Assembly (NCBI GenBank): GCA_029062725.1
Contig: JAIDPP010000364.1
Location: forward strand, 1-11,295
Direction: 5' to 3'
Length of the DNA stretch: 11,295 bases
Source: Muribaculaceae bacterium
GTDB taxonomy: Bacteria; Bacteroidota; Bacteroidia; Bacteroidales; Muribaculaceae
Part shown: one piece after another, positions 1 through 11,295 of the stretch
How positions within the stretch are numbered: position 1 is the first letter of the stretch
Layout: each line of letters opens with the position of its first letter
Made by a program: the position numbers and the translations under genes
Notes under the pieces: generated by a model
The model's database searches: none
Told to the model about the DNA's origin: nothing
The model's input: only the letters and a program-made list of their open reading frames with translations

Positions 1-40
1 TTTCATTCTCTAAAGAGGAGTTCGACTCTCCTATGGACTA
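1..40 (+). tRNA. tRNA 3' fragment, probably tRNA-Glu(UUC)
   Basis: This is the 3' part of a tRNA cut by the window edge. The T arm is clear: a 5-bp stem (16-20 with 28-32) closes a 7-base loop TTCGACT, which fits the TTCRANY consensus. It is followed by seven acceptor-strand bases (33-39) and a discriminator A at 40; no CCA is encoded. Reading back with a 4-base variable loop (12-15) and the 3' anticodon stem at 7-11, the loop ends TTTCAT. That places T at position 33, anticodon TTC and A37, hence Glu. The T arm is seen directly. The amino-acid identity is inferred and depends on the variable loop being four bases long, as I recall for other Bacteroidales tRNA-Glu. The 5' half lies outside the window. 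Confidence 0.75.
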
Positions 41-64
41 CTTCCCCAAATCCATCCTATCCCC

Positions 65-107
65 GAGACCGGCTGTCGTTTTAATGACTGTCGGTCTCAA
101 CCTTTTT
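65..107 (+). terminator. Intrinsic terminator after the tRNA
   Basis: Bases 65-77 pair with 86-98: seven perfect pairs (GAGACCG/CGGTCTC), then a G-T wobble, one C-G pair, one T-T mismatch and three more pairs, around an 8-base loop (78-85). A run of five T follows at 103-107. The position, 24 bases after the tRNA end, fits termination of the tRNA transcript. The T run ends only seven bases before the next start codon at 115. Confidence 0.8.
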
Positions 108-114
108 AAATCCT

Positions 115-1596
115 ATGATTCAACGACTGCTTTTCCGCCTCTGCGCTTTATGCGCCCTCCTTTCGATCACCTCCCCTCTCGGAGCACGAGCCGAATGGAA
201 CGACTCTATCCGCTATCACGGTGAAATCGGAGCTACATTCTCCGCCGGTCAGCACACACCATTCTGGATGGCCAACAACAAGTATGGTTTCTCCTCGATA
301 ACCCGCAACAACGCCTGGCTGCGGCTGGGAGCATTCCATGATATGGATACGACGCGGCGCTTCACATGGGGGGCCGGAGCGGATCTCGCGGTAGCGGCAA
401 GATTCACTTCCGTTTTCGTGGTGCAGCAGCTATATGGCGAGGTGAAATACCGATGTCTTAACCTTATGATCGGAGCCAAAGAGCTGAACGGATTCATGGA
501 GAATAATGATCTCGGCTCAGGAAACCTGCTCTTCTCCGGAAACGCCCGCCCGATTCCGCAAGTGAGGGCAGGAATATTCGACTATGCCGATTTCTGGGGC
601 ACAAAAGGATGGTTCGCGGTGAAGGGCTATCTCGCTTTCGGAATGACTACCGATAACCGGTGGATCAAGAGTTGGGTGGCCGCGGACGCTGCCTATACCC
701 TGAACACTCTCTATCACTCCAAGGGGATAGCCTTCAGGGTAGGAAACACGCGCGTATTCCCACTCTCTTTCGAGGTCGGAATGGAGATGGCCACACAGTT
801 CGGAGGCGATTACTATGATGACGGCCGTCTGGTGCGCAAGATGCCGAGAGGCTGGAAAAACTGGGTGAAGGCCGTAATCCCTATGAAAGGCGGAGGCGAC
901 ACTCCCACGAGCGATCAGCTGAACGTGGAGGGAAATATGCTCGGCACCTGGAATTTCGCCCTTGCCTGGAATCCCGCAGCCGACTGGAGCGTGAAGCTCT
1001 ATTACGAGCATTTCTTCGAAGACCATTCGATGATGACTTTCGACTATCCCTGGAAGGATGGCCTCTACGGAGTGAAAGCACAGCTGCCGAAGAACAGATG
1101 GGTTTCCGAGGTGGTCTATGAGTTTCTTTATACCAAAGATCAGGCCGGACCCGTCTATTGGGACCACACCGACAAAATCCCCGAACAGGTCTCCGGTGTC
1201 GATAATTACTACAACAACTATAACTACAACGGCTGGGAGCACTGGGGAATGGGTATCGGAAATCCTTTAGTGATCTCCCCCATCTACAATCCCTCCCATA
1301 CGCTCGGCTTCAACTGCAACCGAGTATGGGGCCATCATCTCGGGATCAAAGGGGAGCCTTCCTCCCGTATCGGCTACCGCCTCCTTGCTTCCTACTCCAA
1401 AGGCTGGGGCAACTATGGCGCGCCATTCGCCGATGCGAAGAGCAATTTCAATCTCCTCGGGGAAGTCTGCTGGCGTCCGGAGAAACTGAAAGGCTGGGAA
1501 GGGACACTCGGGTTAGGCATGGATGCAGGGTCGATGCTTGGAAACAGCTACGGCATATCCCTCAAGATCGCCAAGACCGGTTGGTTCCTGAAATGA
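115..1596 (+). CDS. Capsule assembly Wzi-family outer-membrane protein
   Basis: The 493-residue protein matches the Bacteroidales branch of the Wzi capsule-assembly family (Caps_assemb_Wzi) by overall character; this is recognition from memory, not a search. Wzi proteins are outer-membrane beta barrels that help anchor or assemble surface capsular polysaccharide. A signal peptide is clear: basic start, hydrophobic stretch at residues 5-20, likely cleavage after the ARA motif at 24-26. The mature part opens with an RYHGEIGATFSAGQHTPFW-type segment, with the HTPFWM stretch common in this family. It is rich in alternating aromatic strands ending in a short hydrophobic and aromatic C terminus, as in a barrel. 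The start at 115 is the only upstream ATG that keeps the signal peptide. Capsule genes are not adjacent, which is common for this family member. Its promoter is not obvious because a terminator lies directly upstream. Confidence 0.85.
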   Translation: MIQRLLFRLCALCALLSITSPLGARAEWNDSIRYHGEIGATFSAGQHTPFWMANNKYGFSSITRNNAWLRLGAFHDMDTTRRFTWGAGADLAVAARFTSVFVVQQLYGEVKYRCLNLMIGAKELNGFMENNDLGSGNLLFSGNARPIPQVRAGIFDYADFWGTKGWFAVKGYLAFGMTTDNRWIKSWVAADAAYTLNTLYHSKGIAFRVGNTRVFPLSFEVGMEMATQFGGDYYDDGRLVRKMPRGWKNWVKAVIPMKGGGDTPTSDQLNVEGNMLGTWNFALAWNPAADWSVKLYYEHFFEDHSMMTFDYPWKDGLYGVKAQLPKNRWVSEVVYEFLYTKDQAGPVYWDHTDKIPEQVSGVDNYYNNYNYNGWEHWGMGIGNPLVISPIYNPSHTLGFNCNRVWGHHLGIKGEPSSRIGYRLLASYSKGWGNYGAPFADAKSNFNLLGEVCWRPEKLKGWEGTLGLGMDAGSMLGNSYGISLKIAKTGWFLK

Positions 1597-1643
1597 TTCC
1601 CTGTGAAAGCCGATGATTAAAACCCACCAAACCGAATAATCCG

Positions 1644-2063
1644 ATGAAATTCATTAAATATATCTTCTCCGCCGTTATCCTCTTTGCAGCTGTCTGCGCC
1701 ATCTCCTCCTGCCGAGTGGCCTCCCATAACGGAAAACTCGACGGACAATGGCAGATAATGTCGATCGAGGAGACGGCCACGGGCCTCTCTGCGGCGCCCG
1801 AGACACGGTCCTACCTCTGCTTCTACCTCCATATCCTTCAGGCCTACGGACCGACCTACCGCCTGACGGCCAATATGACCTACGACAAGGAGGAGGAGGT
1901 TCTGACAGCGGATTTCCCTTACATTTCCCAGGGGGATGTCGATAAGAACCTGAAGCCTTACGGTATCTGCTCGAACCCCGTGACGATCGAAGTGGTGAAG
2001 GCCGACAGCAAGGAGCTCGTGCTCCGCACTCCCGAGACCGTTATCACCTGTCGCCGTTTCTGA
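1644..2063 (+). CDS. Lipocalin-like small lipoprotein
   Basis: A 139-residue envelope lipoprotein. Residues 1-22 form a lipoprotein signal ending in the lipobox ISSC with the lipidated cysteine at C23. The mature part starts with a [17 protein letters not shown] segment, which resembles the first strand of the small lipocalin-like domains common in Bacteroidales. The rest alternates short strands and ends in a strand containing VITCRRF. No enzyme motif is visible and the ligand is unknown. It lies 47 bases after the Wzi gene and 13 bases before rnhB, so it is probably co-transcribed with rnhB. I recall lipocalin-like proteins beside rnhB in other Bacteroidales, which supports a conserved arrangement, not a functional link. 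The family call is moderate; the lipoprotein call is firm. Confidence 0.7.
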
Positions 2064-2076
2064 ACCGGAACGCCCC

Positions 2077-2667
2077 ATGCTTCTGCCTTTCATGGTGCCC
2101 GGTATTCCGGAGGCCGGATGCGATGAGGCCGGCAGAGGTTGCCTCTGCGGGCCTGTGGCGTGTGCGGCTGTTATTCTCCCGGAGGATTTCCTATGCGAAG
2201 AGCTGAATGATTCCAAACAGCTTTCCGCCAAAAGCCGGGAGATGTTGCGTCCTGTGATAGAACGCGAGGCTCTTGCCTGGGCAGTAGTAATGGTCGGTCC
2301 CGAGGAGATCGACCGTATAAATATCCTCAAGGCTTCGATTGCAGGAATGCAGCGGGCCATTGATGCGCTTGAGCTGCGCCCGCGTCATATTATAGTTGAC
2401 GGCAACCGATTTACCCCTTACCGAGACCCTGAATCATTCATGGAGATTCCGCATACCACTGTCGTTAAAGGCGATGGAAAATATATGTCGATCGCGGCCG
2501 CCTCGATCCTTGCCAAGACCCACCGCGATGAGCTTATGCAGGAGTATGCCCGTCAATACCCCGGATATGGTTGGGAACGCAACGCCGGCTATCCTACCAA
2601 GGAACACCGTGAGGCTATCTCACGGCTGGGAATAACCCCCATCCACCGCAAAACCTTCCGAATGTAA
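2077..2667 (+). CDS. rnhB: Ribonuclease HII
   Basis: Ribonuclease HII cuts the RNA strand of RNA-DNA hybrids and starts removal of single ribonucleotides misincorporated in DNA; it acts in the cytoplasm. The signature AGCDEAGRG lies at residues 13-21 and gives the metal-binding D16 and E17. The other acidic residues expected of the active site are visible as D108 (in IIVDGNRF) and D151 (in KTHRDELM). The VKGD and [10 protein letters not shown] segments typical of the family lie between them. At 196 residues the length is normal. The start at 2077 gives MLLPF, matching the usual family N terminus; a second ATG at residue 6 is possible but less likely. The stop codon overlaps the next gene's start in TAATG, suggesting translational coupling. 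Confidence 0.95.
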
Positions 2668-4466
2668 TGATGATGCAGCTGCTGAAATATATCCCTACAA
2701 TCATATTGTCGCTCCTCCTTCTCATCATGTTGCAAGGTTGCGACCGCTATGACGGCAACCAGGTTCTCAACGGATTGGCCGAGACTCTCAATCGTCCTGA
2801 CCTCACTGTTGACGAAGCTACAGGGATTCACAGCCGCCTCGCCGCCATCAGCTCCGATTCCCTCACCGAAGCGGAAAAGCATTATCGTGACTTTCTGATC
2901 ATAAAATCGGCCGACAAGGCTTACATACCGCATACCTCCGACTCCCTCTTCCTGACTGTCCGCGATTTCTTTGAGAAACAAGACGATGACACATTCACCG
3001 AGACGCTTTATTACGGAGGCCGCGTATATTCCGATATGGGGGTATATCCTATGGCGCTTGAATATTATCAGGAAGCAATCAAACGTCTGGACGGAGATGA
3101 CCACCATATTGCTCTTCGAAGACGACTCCTTAGTCAAACGGGGAGATTACTTTCAAAACTGGGAATATACAACGAGGCTCGAAGCTACGTAGTAAAAGCC
3201 ATCGAAATAAACCGTTGCTTAGACGATACTCTGAATCTGATCTATAACTTCGAACTGGCCGGTGATATCGCGTTGCGGATGGAGAACTATCCTGAAGCTA
3301 TAAGTAATTTTAACCGAGCAACAATTATAAGCCGGGAACATTATCCTATAGAGCATGATTTCAATAGATTCCGGCTTGGCCATGCCTTGTTTTTAAAGGG
3401 CGACGCACCGGAGGGACTGCAAATCATGGAATCTATCAGGAATGATGACGACAGTATGAGGGTTAATTTCACTTTCCCCGTGCTGGCACAGGCTTATTTG
3501 GAGACCGGCAGATCGGATTCCGCTTTAAGGTATGCAAAGAAAATGATAGCATTGCCAAATTCTCAGAATAGGAAATTCGGTTATAGAATTCTTCTATCAG
3601 ATTCACTACGTCCCCGGCTTCCCCTTGACACTGTCAGAGAGTATGTCGAAAAACTTGACTGTTTGCTTGCGACTGCCAAGGAGGAGAGCATGATGGAGAC
3701 GGCACGCCTACAACACACAATGTATAATTATTCGGTACATGATCATGCGCGTAACCTTGCTGAAAAGGAACGGGATAATTTGAGGTTTTGGCTTGTCGTG
3801 GCGGTAGCCGTGTCTGCTCTCCTGGGACTTGCCATAGCAATAATATGGATCCGGAAAAAGAAACATACATTGGATTTCTTGAAGACAATAAATCGAGGGA
3901 TAAGAGACTTGGCCAACGGTGAGAAGACAGACAGCAAGAATGAAGGTGGCATAGGATCCGAGACTGAGGTGTCCGACAACGCGGCTCAATCCGAGTGCGG
4001 TATTGTCAAGGCAATGGAGTCAATGACAAATCGGGAAGAAAATGAGTTGGTAAAACTACGAGAGAATCTTCTAAGTCTGTGTGTATTGGCCGAAAAGGGA
4101 AGTTATATCGATTCACTGCCAAAAGATTTTCTGAACTGTGATGTCTATAAGAGAATTAAGGAGAGGATAGCGGAAAGTATGCCTTTAAAGGAGGATGATA
4201 TATTATGGGAAGAATTATGGGAGGAGGTATCGACATATTTTCCCTTCTTTAAAGATCGCCTGTGGCTACTATCCGGAGGCACATTGACTGTGGCGGAGGA
4301 AAGGACCGCCCTTATGGTAAGATGTGGTTTCAGGATAAAAGAAATGGAGGTAGTGTTTGGCAGGACAAAAGGTACCTTTGTCTCACGCCGAGATTCAATC
4401 TCGATAAAGATTTTCGGAGAGAAAAAGGGGTCTAAGATCATCGACCGATTTATAAGAAAACTGTAG
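2667..4466 (+). CDS. Membrane-spanning TPR protein with C-terminal HTH-like domain (putative regulator)
   Basis: This 599-residue protein seems built to carry a signal across the inner membrane. Residues 1-24 are hydrophobic and end in LQGC, a lipobox-like motif followed by Asp. Residues about 110-295 hold at least five TPR-type helix pairs, for example the stretches around YSDMGVYPMALEYYQEAI and LAQAYLETGRSDSALRYAKK. A charged, probably coiled-coil stretch precedes one transmembrane helix at about 374-396, followed by RKKKH. The remaining 200 residues would be cytoplasmic and end in a helix-turn-helix-like segment (about 540-585) of the sigma-region-4/LuxR kind, containing AEERTALMVRCGF and RTKGTFVSRRDSI. 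Proteins with TPRs outside, one membrane helix and a DNA-binding-like tail are common in Bacteroidales. Control of the peptide cassette downstream is inferred from position alone. The start could also be at the second or third of three consecutive ATGs/near codons. From about 3090 onward the gene is more AT-rich and uses more AGA/AGG than rnhB. Confidence 0.75.
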   Translation: MMMQLLKYIPTIILSLLLLIMLQGCDRYDGNQVLNGLAETLNRPDLTVDEATGIHSRLAAISSDSLTEAEKHYRDFLIIKSADKAYIPHTSDSLFLTVRDFFEKQDDDTFTETLYYGGRVYSDMGVYPMALEYYQEAIKRLDGDDHHIALRRRLLSQTGRLLSKLGIYNEARSYVVKAIEINRCLDDTLNLIYNFELAGDIALRMENYPEAISNFNRATIISREHYPIEHDFNRFRLGHALFLKGDAPEGLQIMESIRNDDDSMRVNFTFPVLAQAYLETGRSDSALRYAKKMIALPNSQNRKFGYRILLSDSLRPRLPLDTVREYVEKLDCLLATAKEESMMETARLQHTMYNYSVHDHARNLAEKERDNLRFWLVVAVAVSALLGLAIAIIWIRKKKHTLDFLKTINRGIRDLANGEKTDSKNEGGIGSETEVSDNAAQSECGIVKAMESMTNREENELVKLRENLLSLCVLAEKGSYIDSLPKDFLNCDVYKRIKERIAESMPLKEDDILWEELWEEVSTYFPFFKDRLWLLSGGTLTVAEERTALMVRCGFRIKEMEVVFGRTKGTFVSRRDSISIKIFGEKKGSKIIDRFIRKL

Positions 4467-4517
4467 GTAAGGCAGAGTCTCGAATATAGAAATAGCAATG
4501 TAAAGGAGTAAATTGTG

Positions 4518-4566
4518 CGGAAAAAGTACGGAAATTGTATGAAAAGTACGGAAAAAGTACGGAAAT
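4518..4566 (+). repeat. Direct repeats of an 18-base element (GTACGGAAA core)
   Basis: The 18-base string CGGAAAAAGTACGGAAAT occurs exactly twice, at 4518-4535 and 4549-4566. The 9-base core GTACGGAAA occurs at 4526, 4546 and 4557, with a further inverted copy at 4581-4589. Spacings between direct cores are 20 and 11 bases, close to two and one turns of the helix. That would put bound proteins on one DNA face and suggests operator-like sites, though this is inference. A dispersed genomic repeat family is the main alternative. Confidence 0.7.
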
Positions 4567-4595
4567 GCGACCTGTTGGCATTTCCGTACTTTTTC
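4551..4595. terminator. 18-bp perfect inverted repeat, likely terminator
   Basis: Bases 4551-4568 are the exact reverse complement of 4578-4595, leaving a 9-base loop (4569-4577). The 3' arm ends in CTTTTTC and the 5' arm starts with an A run, so the hairpin could end transcription from either side. It lies 85 bases after the stop of the TPR/HTH gene and before the -7 box of the next gene, which fits a boundary between transcription units. The arm contains one of the GTACGGAAA repeats, so it may also be an operator. Confidence 0.65.
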
Positions 4596-4620
4596 AATGA
4601 AGGGGTCTGAAATGAATTAT

Positions 4621-4628
4621 TATCTTTG
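4621..4628 (+). promoter_or_regulatory. Bacteroidetes -7 promoter box (TATCTTTG)
   Basis: TATCTTTG matches the Bacteroidetes -7 consensus TAnnTTTG exactly. Transcription would start at about 4633-4636, roughly ten bases before the ATG at 4645, so the leader would be very short. No clear -33 TTG element lies at the expected distance, which lowers confidence. If right, the in-frame ATG at 4597 is upstream of the transcript and cannot be the start. Confidence 0.6.
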
Positions 4629-4644
4629 CAAAAAAAATGACATT

Positions 4645-5049
4645 ATGAGGCAACTAATTTTTATTTTGATGGTGACATTCGCTATTGGTATATTGCCGAA
4701 AGAATTTGGCAATTCAGCTTCCGCTGCTTATCCCACATACAGACCCCCCGTATCAATAATTGTGGGAAAGTTCTTACCTAAAGATGATGAAATTCCAGAA
4801 ACACCCGTTAAGGGAGATCGGACACCTTCTATGCGTATTCCGGTGACAATCTCGATGGATTGGGTAGAGATCTCCGGAGTGGATTCCAACGATATCCTTA
4901 CATACGGGATTTATGACCTTGACGGAGGCTGTATGGGTATCTTCAATGATGCACCATCTTTTACCGACATCTTCTTTTCCCTCTCCGGAGAGTATGAACT
5001 TCGCTTCACTACCGATGAATATTTATACATCGGATATGTGGAATTGTGA
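4645..5049 (+). CDS. Small secreted beta-rich protein (DUF3244-like)
   Basis: A 134-residue protein with a signal peptide: M-R-Q, a hydrophobic stretch at 4-17 and likely cleavage after the ASA motif at 25-27. There is no lipobox cysteine, so it should be periplasmic or secreted. The mature part has a proline-rich opening (YPTYRPPV). A beta-rich domain then runs from about residue 70 to the end, with segments such as MDWVEISGVDS, YGIYDLDGGCM and RFTTDEYLYIGYVEL. The pattern of a strand, an I-x-D-x-x-G turn and a final TDEYxYIGY strand resembles the small Ig-like DUF3244 proteins of Bacteroidales; I judge this from memory. An upstream in-frame ATG at 4597 is disfavoured because it would break the signal peptide and precede the promoter. 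The gene sits 77 bases upstream of the precursor, so it may belong to the cassette, for example as a chaperone, immunity or surface partner, but no role is proven. Confidence 0.65.
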   Translation: MRQLIFILMVTFAIGILPKEFGNSASAAYPTYRPPVSIIVGKFLPKDDEIPETPVKGDRTPSMRIPVTISMDWVEISGVDSNDILTYGIYDLDGGCMGIFNDAPSFTDIFFSLSGEYELRFTTDEYLYIGYVEL

Positions 5050-5054
5050 ATGAG

Positions 5055-5099
5055 TAACTTGTCTCATCATTCATGTAAATAGAGTAAAGAGACAAATTA
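5055..5099. promoter_or_regulatory. Dyad symmetry upstream of the precursor gene
   Basis: TAACTTGTCTC (5055-5065) pairs with GAGACAAATTA (5089-5099): seven perfect pairs at the loop side, one mismatch, then three more, around a 23-base loop. It lies between the secreted protein's stop and the precursor's start. It could be an operator, a weak RNA hairpin or a processing site protecting the precursor mRNA. No T run follows directly, so a terminator is unlikely. Confidence 0.4.
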
Positions 5100-5126
5100 A
5101 TGTTAATCCTTTAAAACAATTTGATT

Positions 5127-5369
5127 ATGGACAAATTTTTTCTTGAAGTGTTCAATCAGGGAATGTCTCCGCAGGAGATGAATGCCGTAAGAGGGGGAGG
5201 TGCCGATCCTCTCGGAGTATGTACCTGTTATTCAGGTGCAACCTATGACTGTGGATGCTACTCTGACTATATCTGTACCTGTCACGGAGGTGCTACTTCT
5301 CTCGTATGTTCCGCTAACTCATGTGCTTGTAACAGCGCTACCCCCTATAAAGAGTTAGGCAAGCAATAA
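5127..5369 (+). CDS. Cysteine-rich RiPP precursor peptide with double-glycine leader
   Basis: An 80-residue peptide precursor. The leader (1-24) ends in MSPQEMNAVRGG, which fits the C39 consensus LSxxELxxIxGG with hydrophobic residues at -12, -7 and -4. Cleavage after G24 would release a 56-residue core starting GADPLG. A third glycine (G25) makes cleavage one residue later possible but breaks the spacing. The core holds nine cysteines (32, 34, 42, 44, 50, 52, 61, 66, 68), eight of them in four CxC pairs. It contains two related units, VCTCYSGATYDC and ICTCHGGATSLVC, 18 residues apart. Layout and neighbours match the precursors of the GG-Bacteroidales radical SAM systems (TIGR04149-type, as I recall). 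The ATG at 5127 is chosen over a TTG six bases upstream; TAAAACAATTT precedes it, as it does the maturase start. The chemistry of the finished product cannot be read from the sequence; Cys-derived thioethers are the leading idea. Confidence 0.85.
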   Translation: MDKFFLEVFNQGMSPQEMNAVRGGGADPLGVCTCYSGATYDCGCYSDYICTCHGGATSLVCSANSCACNSATPYKELGKQ

Positions 5370-5392
5370 TTGAGCCTTAGTATCGACTTCAT

Positions 5393-5444
5393 GAATAAGA
5401 GACCGGTATTAACATCGATCCGGACTCTTATTCTTAAACTTTTT
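5393..5444 (+). terminator. Attenuator-like hairpin between precursor and maturase genes
   Basis: GAATAAGAGACCGG (5393-5406) pairs with CCGGACTCTTATTC (5420-5433), 13 of 14 positions matching with one A-A mismatch, around a 13-base loop. Five T follow at 5440-5444. It sits 23 bases after the precursor stop and 15 bases before the preferred maturase start. A leaky terminator here would give many precursor transcripts per maturase transcript, as is usual in RiPP operons. It could also serve to stabilise the 3' end of a processed precursor mRNA. Confidence 0.65.
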
Positions 5445-5459
5445 CAACTAAAACAATTT

Positions 5460-6794
5460 ATGGACAATCAGAAACTGATACTTTCGCCTTATACCTTTCT
5501 TTTTGAAGATAATGAAGATTGCTACCTCTTCAATTCGGAAAGTCTTTTCTTCTCACGTATTGATAGAAAACTCTACATCAGTCTTTATGACCGTGACCTT
5601 GAGAGTCTGGATAAAGATACGTTGGATTTTTTAAAAGAGAAGAGGATTATTATTTCCGCAGAGGAGAGATATAACTGCTATAATCACCTCAAGACCCGAC
5701 ATCTTACCTCCGCTTACGGCGATGATACAATGAGCCTAATCATCGCACCAACAACTGCCTGTAATTTTGCGTGTCCCTATTGCTTTGAACCTAAAAAGAA
5801 TCCTAAAACCATAACTAAGGAAGTCGAGGATAAACTGATAGAATATATCAATAATCAGACCCATATCAAGAATATATCACTTACATGGTATGGAGGGGAA
5901 CCTTTGCTGGTTCCGGAGACAATAAGAAGAATCTACGATAGAATTATATCGGAGACAGAAAAGACGATTATTTCCCACGAGATCATAAGTAATACTTTCT
6001 TGGTTGACGATGAGGTGATTAAAATTTTGGGAGATATAAAGATTAACACGATGCAGGTTTCGATAGACGGAACCAAGGATCACCATGATGCCACCCGTTT
6101 CCTTAAGGCGGACAAGTCCCCCACATTTGAAATCATCGAGAGAAATATAGAAAAGATTGCAAAGGCGTTGCCGGAATTGCATATTTCCATACGTGTCAAT
6201 ATAAGAAAAGAGAACTGGAGAGATTTCGTAGAACTCTACCATAAATATCATGGCGAGGATTGGCATGCCAACATCGGGCTTTATCCCGGCATCATTCGAG
6301 AGGACAGCTCGGATGGTTGCCGGATGAAACATTCATGTTTTCAGCTATCCGACCTTCCCGACCTTTACTTCAAGCTTGCGGAAAACGGTGTCAATGTGAA
6401 CTTCTTTCCCGCTAACCGCTTCAAAGGATGTATGCTTCAAAGGGCGAATGCCTTCATTGTCGGTCCGGAGGGGGAACTTTATAAATGCTGGAACGATGTC
6501 AGCAACCCGGAGAAGAGAGTGGGTAGTATCATGGACAACAAGCTTCGCAACTATACACTGCTTATGAGATATATGCATGAGTGTGAGCCGATAAGGACCG
6601 AATGTCGGAACTGTCACGTCTATCCCGTATGCGATGGAGGGTGCGGTCAGCAACAATACCGCAACAGATTTGAAAACGGGGAGTTTCAGTTATGCACTCC
6701 TTTGAAGGATAAAGAGAATATGAAAAGAATCTTGCTTTATTGCAGCCGCGAAAATCCGAATAAACAGAATAAACGGCTGAACTTCGGAGTTTAA
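5460..6794 (+). CDS. Radical SAM/SPASM peptide maturase (GG-Bacteroidales type)
   Basis: A 444-residue radical SAM enzyme that would modify the adjacent precursor in the cytoplasm. Residues about 5-70 look like the N-terminal domain of such maturases, probably for leader binding. The [4Fe-4S]-SAM motif CX3CX2C is C101, C105, C108 (TACNFACPYCF). TWYGGEPLL is the GGEP motif, and MQVSIDG a typical core strand. The SPASM domain is complete: C324-X13-G338-X4-C343, then CX2CX5CX3C at C382, C385, C391, C395, and a last cysteine at C412. SPASM enzymes in this setting commonly form thioether or carbon-carbon links; which one cannot be told. The reading frame is open from 5370 and an ATG also exists at 5391. 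I prefer 5460 because it gives the family-like N terminus (SPYTFLFEDNE), lies after the hairpin, and shares the TAAAACAATTT leader with the precursor. Confidence 0.9.
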   Translation: MDNQKLILSPYTFLFEDNEDCYLFNSESLFFSRIDRKLYISLYDRDLESLDKDTLDFLKEKRIIISAEERYNCYNHLKTRHLTSAYGDDTMSLIIAPTTACNFACPYCFEPKKNPKTITKEVEDKLIEYINNQTHIKNISLTWYGGEPLLVPETIRRIYDRIISETEKTIISHEIISNTFLVDDEVIKILGDIKINTMQVSIDGTKDHHDATRFLKADKSPTFEIIERNIEKIAKALPELHISIRVNIRKENWRDFVELYHKYHGEDWHANIGLYPGIIREDSSDGCRMKHSCFQLSDLPDLYFKLAENGVNVNFFPANRFKGCMLQRANAFIVGPEGELYKCWNDVSNPEKRVGSIMDNKLRNYTLLMRYMHECEPIRTECRNCHVYPVCDGGCGQQQYRNRFENGEFQLCTPLKDKENMKRILLYCSRENPNKQNKRLNFGV

Positions 6795-6835
6795 TAAAAC
6801 ATACTATTAGAAGTTCCATTAATATTACCGAACCT

Positions 6836-9040
6836 ATGAATAGACGCCTCCCGGCCCTGTCACTTCTGATGGGGAAACTCCTGACGATAGTGTCCGCATT
6901 TCTCCTTACCCTCTCATTTCCATGCTCGCTGACCGCACAGACCACCGAGACTGCCGATTCGATTTCGGCTGAAATTCCGGAAATAAACCGGCTATCCACC
7001 GATAAATCCGTAGGGTCGGCGACCCCGGATTCGCTGTCGGTTCCCGGTTATGACCTTCAGGAGGTAGTGGTAAATAGCGAGGGTGTTGTGAGGAAAGGAA
7101 ACCTTACGGAACTCTATCCCGGAAAGCGCGACCGGCGTTTTGCCGCCGGGGCGATCGACGTCCTCTCCAACATGAACATAAGCGAGGTGAGGGTCGATCC
7201 GTTGACCAACGAAGTTACCTCCTCCGATGGTCGGCCGGTCAAGATGTTCATAGACTTCCAGCCGGCAACCTCGCAGCAACTTCGCGACGTGCGTCCGCAG
7301 GATATACAGCGCATCGACATAATACGAAATCCCACCGACCCGAGGTTCATGGGAGCCGAGATCGCGGCCAACTTCATCATGAAGAAATATGAATACGGAG
7401 GATATACCAAAGCCGACGTCACACAGTCTGTGCCGGTTTACAATTCCAATTACGGCCTCTACTCCAAATTCTCCTACCGTAAGATGACCTACGATCTCTC
7501 GACCGGACTCGACTATACCCGCGCCGGTAACAGTAATGGAACCGGAGAGGTGTCGCGTTACCTGTTCGACACGGGTGAGGTTATCCGCAACGCACAGACT
7601 ACCGGCTGCAAGGGCCGCTATCTTGCTCCGCGGGCAACCCTGCGGGCGATCTACAACAAGCCGGGCGTGTCGGTATCGAACCTGTTTGGTTTCAATTTCA
7701 CCAAAACACGCCCCAATACGCGGACCGGGACCGTGGAGTATTCCTCGCTTTATCCCACCACTACTTACGAAGATAACATGCAGAGCTATACCCGTGGATT
7801 TTCATGGAAGGGAAACGTCTTTTTCCCTCTCGGGCGGGGATGGACAATGAACGTTAACACGGGTATAGACTGGGGAAGCAACAGCGACTGGTCGGATTAC
7901 CGGTTGACAGGGGCCGACCCCATCATAAACGATATCAGGGAGCATATCATAGACGGGGTTGCCTCCGTCAACGCCGGGAAAAGTTTCCGATCCCATAACC
8001 TGAATCTCTGGGCATCCGGAGGATGGAACCGTCACAAACTCTTATACCGGACCATTCTTGATACGGATGTTTACCAGCGCAAAGGTTACGGTCAAATAAG
8101 AGGTCAGGTCTCTTTCAATTTCGACGGCTTCTCGATCTCCCCGAGCGCGAAGCTGTCGGTGCAGTCGGAAAGAATCAACGACCGCACCTATACCCGCTGG
8201 CTCCCGCATACGTTCATTCCCTTCTACCTGCAACTCACGCGCCGTTCCTCGCTCAGCGGCAGCTTTGAGTTCGCAATGGGGGCCGAACCGGCTTCCTCCT
8301 ATAGCCCGGTACTCGTTCAGATCAACGAAGTGCTCGCCACGCGTGGAAACGAGGATCTCGAGAATTACCGTTACATCAATGCCCGCCTGGGCTACAACCA
8401 TTACTTCGGTCAGTGGCTGTCGATAAGGGCAGAGGCGAGACACACGCGTAATGACAACGTGGTTGTTTCGGTCTATTCCCAGGGTGTGGCTCCGGGAGGC
8501 ACACCGATGATGGTGTCCGACTTTATAAACGACGGCAGCACATCCTACTCCACCCTCTCGCTCTCGCTCAATGGCAAATACTTCAGCGACCGTCTGGCTG
8601 TAAGCCTGTGGGGATCGATGGGGTATTTCGACCAGCGGGGAGAGAGACGACGTCACGCGTGGTATCCGAAGTTCAACGGGTCGGCGACATACTATATGGG
8701 GAATTTCCGTCTCAGCGCTCTCTATTCTCCTTCCAGCAAGAGCTACTTTGCCAACAGCAGTGAGAGGACACCGGCCTATTGGGCCCTTTCTGTGGCCTAT
8801 TCCTATGATGACCTCTATGTTGACCTGCGTTTCAGCAATCCGTTCAGCCGGTCATACATGAGAAGCGAGGAGTCGTTCTCGTCACCCCTGTATTCCTCCG
8901 ACTTTACCTATTACAGTCCTACCTACCATCAGTCACTTCGCCTGACGCTCTCTTATTCCATCGGATATGGAAAGAAGCTTGACCGCAGGGACGAGGTCGG
9001 AGGCATAGCCGGTCCGGAGTCCATCATCTTGAAGAAATAG
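6836..9040 (+). CDS. TonB-receptor-like outer-membrane beta-barrel protein
   Basis: A 734-residue outer-membrane protein. The signal peptide ends near SLTAQ with cleavage about residue 34. A starting Met at residue 12 is an alternative that also leaves a good signal. A plug-like domain follows at about 74-185: it opens with LQEVVVNSEG, then has the DGRPVKMFID stretch, the RPQDIQRIDIIRNPTDPRF segment and NFIMKKYEYGGY. The remaining 550 residues are alternating, aromatic-rich barrel strands. It fits the outer-membrane barrel family (OMP_b-brl_3) of Bacteroidetes, without the N-terminal carboxypeptidase-regulatory-like domain often found there. It lies 41 bases after the maturase and 5 bases before the exporter, so it is very probably part of the cassette. 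It may pass the mature peptide through the outer membrane or bind it there; direction is not determined by the sequence. Its base composition is more GC-rich than the maturase. Confidence 0.8.
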   Translation: MNRRLPALSLLMGKLLTIVSAFLLTLSFPCSLTAQTTETADSISAEIPEINRLSTDKSVGSATPDSLSVPGYDLQEVVVNSEGVVRKGNLTELYPGKRDRRFAAGAIDVLSNMNISEVRVDPLTNEVTSSDGRPVKMFIDFQPATSQQLRDVRPQDIQRIDIIRNPTDPRFMGAEIAANFIMKKYEYGGYTKADVTQSVPVYNSNYGLYSKFSYRKMTYDLSTGLDYTRAGNSNGTGEVSRYLFDTGEVIRNAQTTGCKGRYLAPRATLRAIYNKPGVSVSNLFGFNFTKTRPNTRTGTVEYSSLYPTTTYEDNMQSYTRGFSWKGNVFFPLGRGWTMNVNTGIDWGSNSDWSDYRLTGADPIINDIREHIIDGVASVNAGKSFRSHNLNLWASGGWNRHKLLYRTILDTDVYQRKGYGQIRGQVSFNFDGFSISPSAKLSVQSERINDRTYTRWLPHTFIPFYLQLTRRSSLSGSFEFAMGAEPASSYSPVLVQINEVLATRGNEDLENYRYINARLGYNHYFGQWLSIRAEARHTRNDNVVVSVYSQGVAPGGTPMMVSDFINDGSTSYSTLSLSLNGKYFSDRLAVSLWGSMGYFDQRGERRRHAWYPKFNGSATYYMGNFRLSALYSPSSKSYFANSSERTPAYWALSVAYSYDDLYVDLRFSNPFSRSYMRSEESFSSPLYSSDFTYYSPTYHQSLRLTLSYSIGYGKKLDRRDEVGGIAGPESIILKK

Positions 9041-9045
9041 AGAGG

Positions 9046-11253
9046 GTGAGATTGTTTAAGTGGATACCGCAGAGGGATGCCATGCAGTGCGGGGTCGCCT
9101 CTTTGGCCATGATATGCCGATGGTATGGGAAAGGCTACAGTGTAGCCGAACTTGAGGGATACTGTCATCCGACAAACGAAGGGGTTTCGCTAAAGGGGAT
9201 AGCGGATGCCGCTGCTGAACTCGGATTCAAGGCTCACGCCAATAAAATGGATACGGAGACTCTCAAGAAGGCACCTCTTCCGCTGATTCTCCATTGGAAC
9301 CGGAATCATTTTGTAGTCCTTTATGGGATCTCAAAAAACGGGAAGCGGTTTTATGTCGCGGATCCGGCAAAAGGGAAGGTAAAATACAAAGAAGAGGAGT
9401 TTAAAGAGCATTGGATTTACGGAGATTTTGAGAACGAGGGAAGAGGGATAGCAATGTATATGAACCCCGACGATGCAACCGTCAGATCTCCCGAAAAGAA
9501 GATAGAAAATATAACGGGGATCAGGAGACGATCTATCTCTTTTCTTTTGGGGTATCTTAAAAAATACCGTAAGGATTTTGTAAAGGTCTTTCTGACACTC
9601 CTTATAGGCTGCCTTCTCCAGCCGATTCTCCCGTTCCTGACGCAGTCGATAGTGGATAAAGGGATTCATCATCAGGACATCGGTTTTATATGGCTTATAC
9701 TTTTAGGTGAACTCCTTATTGTAACGGGATATACAGTGACAGATTTCTTCCGGCGTTGGTTGCTTCTGCATATCTCCATGCGTGTCAACATCTCCCTGAT
9801 CAGCAATTTCTTTATAAAGCTCCTGCGGCTCCCGATGTCTTTTTTCGACACCAAGCTGCTGGGAGACCTGTTGCAGAGGATCGGAGATCACGGGAGGGTA
9901 CAGGATTTCCTGAGCGGTCAATTCCTTAACGTGGTGTTCACATTGGTTACGCTGCTTGTTTTCGGAATAATTCTGGCGGTGTATAATCTTACAATATTTC
10001 TTGTTTTTTTAGGCGGAAGTATATGCTACGGAGGATGGATAACGCTGTTCCTGCGCAGGAGAAGGATCCTAGACTATGAGTTGTTCGAGCGTCAGGCTCG
10101 GAATCAGAACAGGACCTATCAGTTTGTCACCGCCATGCAGGAGATAAAACTACAGGATTGTGAGGAACGGCGGCGTCAGGAATGGGAGGATACCCAGACA
10201 GCTCTCTTTGAGGTTAGGATGAAGAACCTGAAACTACAGCAGACACAGGAGGCAGGAGCCATATTTATCAACGAGGTAAAGAATATCTTGATTACCGTTC
10301 TGGCAGCCACCGCCGTTATAAATGGGGAGATGACTCTGGGAGCCATGCTTGCCGTGCAGTATATAATCGGTCAGCTAAACTCTCCTGTCGAACAACTGAT
10401 GGGATTCGTATATACCCTTCAGGATGTAGGCTTATCCTTAGAACGTATCGACGAGATACATAACGGACGTGAAGAGGAACGTGACGAAGGGTTCGCTACT
10501 GATTTTCTCAGTGAAAAGGGTATAGAACTCAGGAATATAACGTTCCGCTATGACCGGCATGCATTGCATGATACCATCACCGGGGTAACTGTTGATATTC
10601 CGGCCGGTAAAACATTAGCCATAGTCGGGGCTTCCGGCAGCGGAAAGACGACCCTTCTTAAATTGATCTTGGGATATTATCCGGTGCTTTCCGGAGAGAT
10701 TGTCGTGGCGGGACGTCCCATAGAGGAATACAGCTTAAAATGGTGGCGTCGTCATTGTGGGGTAGTGATGCAGGATGGAGTGATTTTTTCAGAGTCTATA
10801 GCCCGTAATATAGCAGTGGGGGATGGAGAGATAGATATAGACCGTGTAAGGGAGGCGGCCCGTATAGCTTGTATCGACCGATATGTAGAGACTCTACCGC
10901 TGGGTTATGATACTATGGTAGGACGTGACGGGGTGGGATTGAGTCAGGGGCAGAAGCAACGGATTCTAATAGCACGCGCGGTTTACAAGAATCCTGACTT
11001 TATCTTCCTTGACGAGGCTACAAACGCCCTTGATGCAAAGAATGAACGTGAGATCGTAAGAAATCTTAAGGAGTTCTATAAGGGAAGAACGGTCGTGTTA
11101 ATCGCACATCGTCTTTCCACCGTCAGGGATGCCGACCGGATTATTGTTCTGGACAATGGAAAGGTCACGGAGAACGGTACACATTCCGAGCTTATCGAAC
11201 TGCGAGGAACCTATTATAACCTGGTCAGGAACCAACTTGAATTAGGCAACTAA
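9046..11253 (+). CDS. C39 peptidase-containing ABC transporter (leader-cleaving peptide exporter)
   Basis: A 735-residue inner-membrane exporter that cuts double-glycine leaders and pumps the peptide out using ATP. The N-terminal C39 protease has its full active site: Q9 and C15 (PQRDAMQCG), H88 (NHFVVLY) and D106 (VADPAKG). Transmembrane helices lie in about residues 165-450. The ATPase domain follows: Walker A GASGSGKTT (528-536), signature LSQGQ (632-636, Q in place of the common G at the third-fourth region), Walker B FIFLDE (652-657) and the H-loop His688. The start is GTG at 9046, five bases after the barrel's stop, which gives the family-like MRLFKWIPQRDAMQCG; no ATG would retain the whole protease. 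Tight spacing and the GG leader upstream make the precursor its obvious substrate. No HlyD-type adaptor is seen in the window. Confidence 0.93.
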   Translation: MRLFKWIPQRDAMQCGVASLAMICRWYGKGYSVAELEGYCHPTNEGVSLKGIADAAAELGFKAHANKMDTETLKKAPLPLILHWNRNHFVVLYGISKNGKRFYVADPAKGKVKYKEEEFKEHWIYGDFENEGRGIAMYMNPDDATVRSPEKKIENITGIRRRSISFLLGYLKKYRKDFVKVFLTLLIGCLLQPILPFLTQSIVDKGIHHQDIGFIWLILLGELLIVTGYTVTDFFRRWLLLHISMRVNISLISNFFIKLLRLPMSFFDTKLLGDLLQRIGDHGRVQDFLSGQFLNVVFTLVTLLVFGIILAVYNLTIFLVFLGGSICYGGWITLFLRRRRILDYELFERQARNQNRTYQFVTAMQEIKLQDCEERRRQEWEDTQTALFEVRMKNLKLQQTQEAGAIFINEVKNILITVLAATAVINGEMTLGAMLAVQYIIGQLNSPVEQLMGFVYTLQDVGLSLERIDEIHNGREEERDEGFATDFLSEKGIELRNITFRYDRHALHDTITGVTVDIPAGKTLAIVGASGSGKTTLLKLILGYYPVLSGEIVVAGRPIEEYSLKWWRRHCGVVMQDGVIFSESIARNIAVGDGEIDIDRVREAARIACIDRYVETLPLGYDTMVGRDGVGLSQGQKQRILIARAVYKNPDFIFLDEATNALDAKNEREIVRNLKEFYKGRTVVLIAHRLSTVRDADRIIVLDNGKVTENGTHSELIELRGTYYNLVRNQLELGN

Positions 11254-11295
11254 AATATAATCAGCAAGTTAATAAAATTTTACGAAGTATATGAA
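11254..11295. other. AT-rich tail with possible start of a further gene
   Basis: These 42 bases after the exporter stop are AT-rich and hold no convincing terminator hairpin. An ATG at 11291 followed by AA could begin another gene of the same operon, but only two codons fit in the window, so this is a guess from position. Confidence 0.25.

Follow-up and report, generated by a model that had tools for sequence, protein, structure and literature searches.

A predicted RiPP operon of Muribaculaceae with a TonB-dependent-type barrel, and the reduced adaptor of its exporter clade

Gene clusters that combine a precursor peptide with a double-glycine (GG) leader, a C39 peptidase-containing ATP-binding cassette (ABC) transporter (PCAT), a radical S-adenosylmethionine (SAM) enzyme and an outer-membrane protein, in some cases with a tetratricopeptide repeat (TPR) gene, have been reported in Bacteroidales as biosynthetic gene clusters BGC1-9 (PMC10352776). 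For BGC6-9, Fernandez-Cantos et al. 2023 found a PCAT and an outer-membrane protein but no membrane fusion protein (MFP), and left open whether this gap reflects a separate mode of transport or an MFP that escaped notice (PMC10352776). Passage through the outer membrane is likewise unsettled for the bacteroidetocins, for which lysis could not be ruled out (PMC6671954). Here we analyse an 11,295-nt stretch of DNA from a Muribaculaceae bacterium (contig JAIDPP010000364.1, positions 1-11,295, hereafter the window), which is the entire contig of a metagenome bin of 1.83 Mb, 441 contigs and 80% completeness. Its closest named relatives are bins with the labels Porphyromonadaceae, Muribaculaceae or Bacteroides, in keeping with a probable Muribaculaceae host. 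As read from its sequence, it holds an operon for a ribosomally synthesised and post-translationally modified peptide (RiPP), predicted to make and export a Cys-rich modified peptide.

We hold with moderate confidence that this peptide, into which a radical SAM enzyme likely introduces cross-links, is exported in two steps, by the PCAT and then by the adjacent TonB-dependent-type barrel. Exit through the neighbouring barrel appears likely because most relatives carry, after the PCAT, only a stub of the adaptor (the MFP). The operon seems to host a GG peptide, a maturase of an unnamed family, a PCAT of the stub-bearing clade and a barrel of the TonB-dependent type. The genes of BGC1-9 are of the same kinds; those are other clusters, set apart by description and not by sequence, and the available part of that report mentions no stub (PMC10352776). 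The bacteroidetocins are also GG peptides with PCATs in Bacteroidales, but they are class II-like, most are accompanied by a thiol oxidoreductase gene, and the available text mentions no radical SAM enzyme (PMC6671954). Type I secretion of the colicin V or hemolysin kind (PCAT or HlyB, MFP and TolC) shares the C39-type exporter and, in relatives of the window, the MFP's N-terminal portion; in contrast, the stub is without the periplasmic MFP part and a plugged barrel stands beside the PCAT.

Export genes and the adaptor stub

From position 2667 onward all genes lie on the + strand, in the order regulator (with TPR, transmembrane and helix-turn-helix (HTH) parts), secreted protein, precursor, maturase, barrel and C39 exporter. 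Those on which the argument depends, and the contig edge, are as follows.

5127..5369, + strand: precursor peptide, 80 aa (leader 5127-5198, core 5199-5366)
5460..6794, + strand: radical SAM/SPASM maturase; reading frame open from TTG 5370, likely start ATG 5460
6836..9040, + strand: plug-plus-barrel protein, predicted TonB-dependent transporter fold (AF2 model, pLDDT 79; Foldseek)
9046..11253, + strand: C39 peptidase-containing ABC exporter (PCAT), GTG start, assigned by Pfam and placed by tree in the stub-bearing clade
11254..11295, + strand: contig edge; the adaptor-stub gene of most relatives would start in or beyond these 42 nt

A preliminary description of this DNA had proposed a complete, functional-looking RiPP cassette of the GG-Bacteroidales kind. 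The five genes it listed, from the secreted protein to the C39 exporter, are all in that place on one strand and the RiPP operon stands, while the adjoining regulator (2667-4466) and promoter region (4515-4628) had been omitted and membership in the named GG-Bacteroidales family failed with both of its models, TIGR04148 and TIGR04149. Its pairing of a GG leader with a C39 exporter was borne out by the precursor reading frame and by Pfam (Peptidase_C39, 2.2e-33; also ABC_membrane and ABC_tran). Completeness cannot be claimed, because the contig stops 42 nt past the PCAT; nor is function established, given this edge and a periplasmic adaptor apparently reduced to a stub in most relatives.

PCAT-type exporters of this kind were found in at least 108 of the 397 genomes of the bacterial family, exporter counts being lower bounds because two or three candidates per genome were scored. 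The gene after the PCAT is an open reading frame (ORF) of 49-88 aa in 28 of the 29 best-scoring other loci of the family (the exception is L121; L numbers are our own for loci), a count that covers both orientations, adaptor-homology lists covering forward-oriented loci only. These short proteins have a membrane helix, the typical motif ELRSEKVRxLxGEIPPSLVRWG and often a PYPYSNGESILRHF tail. Full adaptors that follow the PCATs of other Bacteroidales measure 434-457 aa, the two scanned being HlyD_3 proteins, and the stub profile matches nine full-length adaptors within residues 2-69, plus a short extra piece in L151. By these profile matches, the homology between the stub and an HlyD adaptor is confined to the adaptor's N-terminal segment and membrane helix.

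Eight close loci combine the maturase of the operon with enough downstream sequence, and six of them have a stub ORF; five of the six score 36-100 bits with the stub profile, and L034 is marginal at 12.8. Seven test loci gave 34-100 bits in six cases, the best of 1000 shuffles reaching 12.5, and L030, which has a core with Cys-x-Cys (CxC) units like that of the window, scored 39.3 bits. A protein search with the stub returned 366 clusters; among the 120 listed, none has a Pfam domain and the named ones are called "hypothetical protein". The available portions of the literature on Bacteroidales and GG-peptide export, partial in their coverage, contain no mention of it that we could find (PMC10352776, PMC6671954, PMC4446572, PMC8277102, PMC6434023).

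Ordinary tripartite export, with a general adaptor encoded elsewhere bridging the PCAT to TolC and the stub as a dying remnant, finds support in the seven HlyD_3 matches above cut-off elsewhere in the bin. None of these proteins scores as a cognate adaptor at 1e-10, however, and the full-length cognate MFP of type I export was not found in relatives: the adaptor profile found none in the 37 genomes of the window's genus, where its lone match (G007) is the stub itself, and 28 of 29 family loci have the stub. In 24 genomes of other families the same profile found full-length adaptors in seven and pieces in three more. Decay of the stub would also fit L182 (G007 contig 8, 10202-15450), a locus of two tandem radical SAM/barrel modules, the second of which ends in a stub-like piece without the first half of the motif. 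Against decay, motif and place of the stub are kept across the family and three close pairs have dN/dS of 0.03-0.10. On this evidence we consider tripartite export rather unlikely.

The barrel was recognised by fold search alone: Pfam gave no significant match (Plug, 0.079) and a sequence-profile search of the PDB nothing, whereas its model matched Cir (2e-19), PirA (1e-18), FepA (9e-18) and BtuB (4e-17) in Foldseek, with TMt of 0.49-0.63 in the ten best. The modelled protein has the plug and large barrel of TonB-dependent transporters. It contains a TonB-box-like LQEVVV; the strict motif was seen for 23 of 60 homologues and for 2.9% of shuffles. Use for exit or for entry is not readable from sequence; we favour exit, as a putative function, because of the position of the gene, the reduced adaptor, the need for a TonB-dependent transporter (Oar) in secretion of PopC in Myxococcus (PMC6434023) and the reported activation of the transporter by the N-terminus of HlyD (PMC4446572). 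As in Myxococcus, such a transporter would be the exit for a periplasmic substrate, but the cargo there is a protease and the case is an analogy only (PMC6434023).

A different role for the barrel is possible, if on the unlikely side: it may be a receptor for the peptide of its own operon or of a rival, used for reuptake, for perception through the TPR regulator or for self-protection, with the peptide leaving by lysis or vesicles. TonB-dependent transporters mostly import, the top fold matches are receptors for colicins, siderophores and vitamins, a predicted membrane sensor is encoded next door, and lysis was left open for the bacteroidetocins (PMC6671954). The location of the barrel gene directly upstream of the PCAT, and its association with a reduced adaptor, argue instead for export.

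Adaptor state and barrel in 100 exporter loci

This association was surveyed in 100 PCATs, 40 from the family and 60 from the order, by classing the downstream adaptor and seeking a barrel that ended at most 2.5 kb upstream. Adaptors were full in 46 loci (407-469 aa), stubs in 33 (47-88 aa), half-size in 11 (153-228 aa) and absent in 10, among them L260, which is classed as without adaptor yet carries a 46-aa stub. Within the family, there were 31 stubs, one half-size adaptor, eight loci with none and no full adaptor. With contig edges excluded, an upstream barrel was found in 27 of 29 stub loci, 8 of 10 half-size, 4 of 9 without adaptor and 4 of 42 with a full one; a barrel lay downstream instead in one of the 42 full-adaptor loci. 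Reduced adaptors (stub or half-size) thus have a barrel in 35 of 39 loci, versus 4 of 42 for full adaptors (Fisher p 5e-14), and in the order sample alone the figures are 9 of 11 versus 4 of 42 (p 7.5e-6).

The barrel model was built from barrels around the same PCATs and seeded with stub-type loci; therefore, any ORF of at least 500 aa in barrel position was also counted. Poor sensitivity for barrels does not explain the contrast, because 24 of the 38 other full-adaptor loci have no 500-aa ORF there at all, and nine of the remaining 14, when scanned, gave no barrel match for their large ORFs and showed other families: lantibiotic dehydratase (three), AMP-binding, ankyrin, RDD, CHAT/TPR and LanC-like. 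In L203, two large proteins had CarbopepD_reg and TPR matches only. The scan covered all such loci except L212, L232, L234, L235 and L239.

Two further observations concern the adaptor classes. Half-size adaptors of 153-226 aa occur outside the family (L136, L138, L139, L141-L144, L147, L148, L157) and consist of a membrane helix with a short further part, intermediate between HlyD and the stub. Some full-adaptor PCATs are preceded by a lantibiotic dehydratase (L202, L204, L221) or a DUF4135/LanC-like protein (L250), indicating lanthipeptide-type clusters in the order.

In the PCAT tree, the window falls inside a starred clade of 37 rows (100*), made up of 31 stub loci, five loci without recognised adaptor (L260 included) and the window itself. 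As a description, the link between barrel and reduced adaptor is strong; as a test it is weak, because it amounts to about one evolutionary series with three changes of state.

Several results weigh against export by way of a stub and a barrel. The tree is one nested series, from full through half-size to stub adaptors, and it yields three independent pairs (sign test p 1), so that the correlation is not significant once relatedness is counted. An upstream barrel is also present in the four full-adaptor loci already mentioned, and the nine loci without recognised adaptor are divided, with the barrel upstream in four, downstream in one and absent in four. No stub follows the PCAT in L037 and L040, and the full-length adaptor profile gives 0.4 for the L034 ORF and 8.1 for that of L030, against 5.5 for shuffles. 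Low dN/dS is confined to close pairs of stubs, and the median over 107 partly saturated pairs is 0.50. The seven HlyD_3 proteins elsewhere in the bin could serve in trans or in other pumps. As to a TolC-type duct, one single-sequence query (the L032 protein, PF02321) matched one of 40 regions (L195). Finally, the window's own stub is unseen at the contig edge, and none was found in the bin, itself 80% complete.

With these points counted, we propose tentatively, and with less assurance than two-step export itself, that in one large Bacteroidales clade the PCAT may have lost its periplasmic adaptor and tunnel, kept the 46-88 aa N-terminal helix and anchor as an activating subunit, and come to hand its peptide to a dedicated TonB-dependent barrel.

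Precursor, maturase and their relatives

The precursor has a 24-aa leader ending in GG and a 56-aa core with nine Cys and four CxC units. Protein search returned one relative, 95% identical, and nothing else; this lone match, and literature searches without such a product, fit the preliminary statement that no product of this precursor is described. Among complete precursors, the closest are three, one in L029 and two in L030, which have in common a leader ending in N-x-V-R-G-G and a YDCGC- or FSCDC-like turn. The number of CxC units is exactly four in the core of the window and of each of the three. Shuffled versions of these four cores reach four CxC units with p of 0.007-0.021 each. Among 11 more distant cores, seven are without CxC and two (L035, L038) have four.

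Scanning for relatives of the maturase in one genome per species gave 50 loci. Under a fixed rule (the maturase adjoined by a GG peptide that has three or more Cys, counted for loci with more than 500 nt upstream), such a peptide is present in 32 of 46 loci, one of which (L071) looks like chance, and the same rule on the reverse strand gave 2 of 50. Where identity is at least 38% over most of the maturase, 13 of 14 loci have a precursor (L042 has none), a count that leaves out the partial maturase matches L076 and L078. Maturase and precursor therefore co-occur, the opposite of what the preliminary description had named as refuting it.

Other peptide types stand beside some maturase relatives. 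In Prevotella and related loci (L051, L058, L062, L063, L065, L066, L067) the core is nearly constant, of a C-D/N-PWSDCDAWNC...CK type, and a PCAT lies near several of these loci. Victivallis-type loci (L069, L070, L071, L073) have long leaders and CGLQTCAMDACG-type cores beside a 28-31% identical relative; the leaders look Nif11/NHLP-like. On a Wallbacteria-labelled contig (L053), several tandem Cys-rich peptides starting near WIEKPE accompany two copies of the maturase relative.

Starting probably at ATG 5460, the maturase would be 444 aa long, because the ORFs of 10 of 13 aligned close relatives begin at this position; those of L036, L037 and L039 open further upstream. Pfam recognises Radical_SAM (1.7e-20). 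The CX3CX2C motif (C131, C135, C138) and seven SPASM Cys (C354, C373, C412, C415, C421, C425, C442), the motifs named in the preliminary description, are present, and all ten Cys are invariant in 14 aligned sequences. The N-terminal strands and helices of the model (pLDDT 86) look like a putative leader-binding part (RiPP recognition element). The closest solved sequence is CteB (5wgg, E 1e-16), which is also the best fold match (5why/5wgg), followed by anSMEcpe, TigE, SuiB, ChlB and SkfB.

Of 70 NCBIfam families matched, 25 were listed and all of these fell short of their cut-offs, the scores being 207.9 of 600 bits for TIGR04334 (Clo7bot), 198 of 525 for TIGR04463 and 192.7 of 600 for CefB (NF038107). 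With these and with CteB, the maturase shares the radical SAM/SPASM architecture, the leader-binding-looking N-terminal part and Cys-rich targets; it differs in its CxC core, its Gram-negative export genes and scores far below the cut-offs. The named GG-Bacteroidales system was tried and rejected. A GG leader, a SPASM maturase and a host in the same order would all suit it, but the proteins of the window fail both models: TIGR04148 gave 45.8 of 300 bits, over model positions 18-177 only (the radical SAM core), and TIGR04149 gave the precursor 7.7 of 25 bits (E 9.2), so that with the curated cut-offs not reached, membership is very improbable. Judged by these models, the maturase belongs to an unnamed family and to none of the named kinds; at E 1e-50, this family is found in 28 of the 397 genomes.

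Thioether formation is the likeliest step for this enzyme, because its best match by both sequence and predicted fold is CteB. We think it rather improbable that the maturase performs another chemistry (epimerisation, cyclophane formation or a reaction without use of Cys) and that the CxC core takes its fold from disulfides or acts as a metal binder in the manner of a metallothionein. Matches by fold or to family models do include the epimerase EpeE and maturases of the cyclophane type, and CxC units are common in metal-binding proteins. The top match by fold and by sequence is a thioether enzyme, however, and neighbouring cores have Cys in common and little else, which argues for thioethers.

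Upstream region, spread of the module and significance

Upstream of the precursor lie four further features of the locus, preceded on the 5' side of the regulator by rnhB, a lipocalin-like protein and a 493-aa protein without family match.

2667..4466, + strand: predicted transmembrane regulator with lipobox-like Cys25, TPR domain and C-terminal HTH-like region
4515..4595, + strand: GTACGGAAA repeats, direct copies with an 18-nt inverted repeat (4551-4568 / 4578-4595)
4621..4628, + strand: TATCTTTG, which fits the TAnnTTTG box
4645..5049, + strand: small secreted DUF3244-like protein, predicted immunoglobulin-like fold

The regulator has one transmembrane segment (about residues 373-393) and a TPR_12 match (1.6e-12). 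In eight aligned candidates (the window and seven close loci, 14-22% identical; that of L037 lies on the other strand and that of L032 has intervening genes) Cys25 is invariant, and C-terminal HTH matches are weak (GerE, 2.7e-5, in one of eight; Sigma70_r4_2 in two). L038 and L043 have partial regulator ORFs, as judged by eye, and none was recognised in L033 and L039. The secreted protein gave no match by itself in a Pfam scan that included PF11589. This family is found in 3 of 11 aligned secreted-protein neighbours, and a profile of the 11 matches the DUF3244 structure 3sd2 (E 5e-4); we class the protein as DUF3244-like by family profile.

Between the two genes, GTACGGAAA occurs in four copies, versus 0.07 expected, and its 20-nt double motif is found in the bin at this locus only. 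The inverted repeat was reached in 0 of 200 shuffles (hairpin z -5.8), and an Rfam scan of the window gave no match. Nine regions were compared, with start codons placed by hand and L032 left out on account of its 1.7-kb gap, which contains other genes. Six (the window and five relatives) hold an inverted repeat that no more than 1 of 200 shuffles equalled, and its sequence differs from region to region; L029, L030 and L037 have no such repeat. These differences suit operators diverging with their regulators, although the strong hairpin may mark the transcript end of the regulator gene instead. In all nine regions TAnnTTTG, which we take to be the Bacteroidetes -7 box consensus, is found no more than 90 nt upstream of the secreted-protein gene, versus 0.45 expected from base shuffles.

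Parts of this arrangement recur elsewhere. In L179, regulator, DUF3244-like protein, barrel, PCAT and stub are found with two Cys-bearing GG peptides and a 484-aa protein, and in L180 the same module is found with two GG peptides and another protein, bearing CNLRCKYC. In L171 (1176-5401), the module has two GG peptides (GGWANPEK..., GGATQINC...), and a 504-aa and two proteins of about 300 aa replace the maturase. The export module is broader than the one product of the window, because it is also found with other peptides and enzymes and because the exporter occurs in at least 108 of the 397 genomes, against 28 for the maturase.

In the proposed mechanism, the promoter ahead of the secreted-protein gene would be activated by the membrane-spanning TPR/HTH regulator. 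With the GG leader bound, the SPASM maturase would link core Cys, in the four CxC units, as thioethers, with 2 Da lost for each, as fold and Cys content suggest. The C39 domain, observed like the leader itself, would cut after GG, and the PCAT would move the core to the periplasm. The stub kept in relatives, an adaptor homologue, may act on the PCAT with no tunnel to TolC being built, and the product would then pass out by way of the plugged barrel, in the manner in which Oar serves PopC in Myxococcus.

The exit of GG peptides from Bacteroidales, open in the available text of two reports (PMC10352776, PMC6671954), becomes testable, stub and barrel now being named genes. The CxC-rich core, with a maturase family of its own, also offers new ground for work on thioether chemistry. 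Should the barrel act in export, small modified peptides would join the cargo of TonB-powered secretion. If the proposal for the whole clade is true, the barrel would be a TonB-powered exporter whose gene shares an operon with that of its cargo, and the tiny subunit would represent a protein family, several hundred clusters in size, that has been overlooked.

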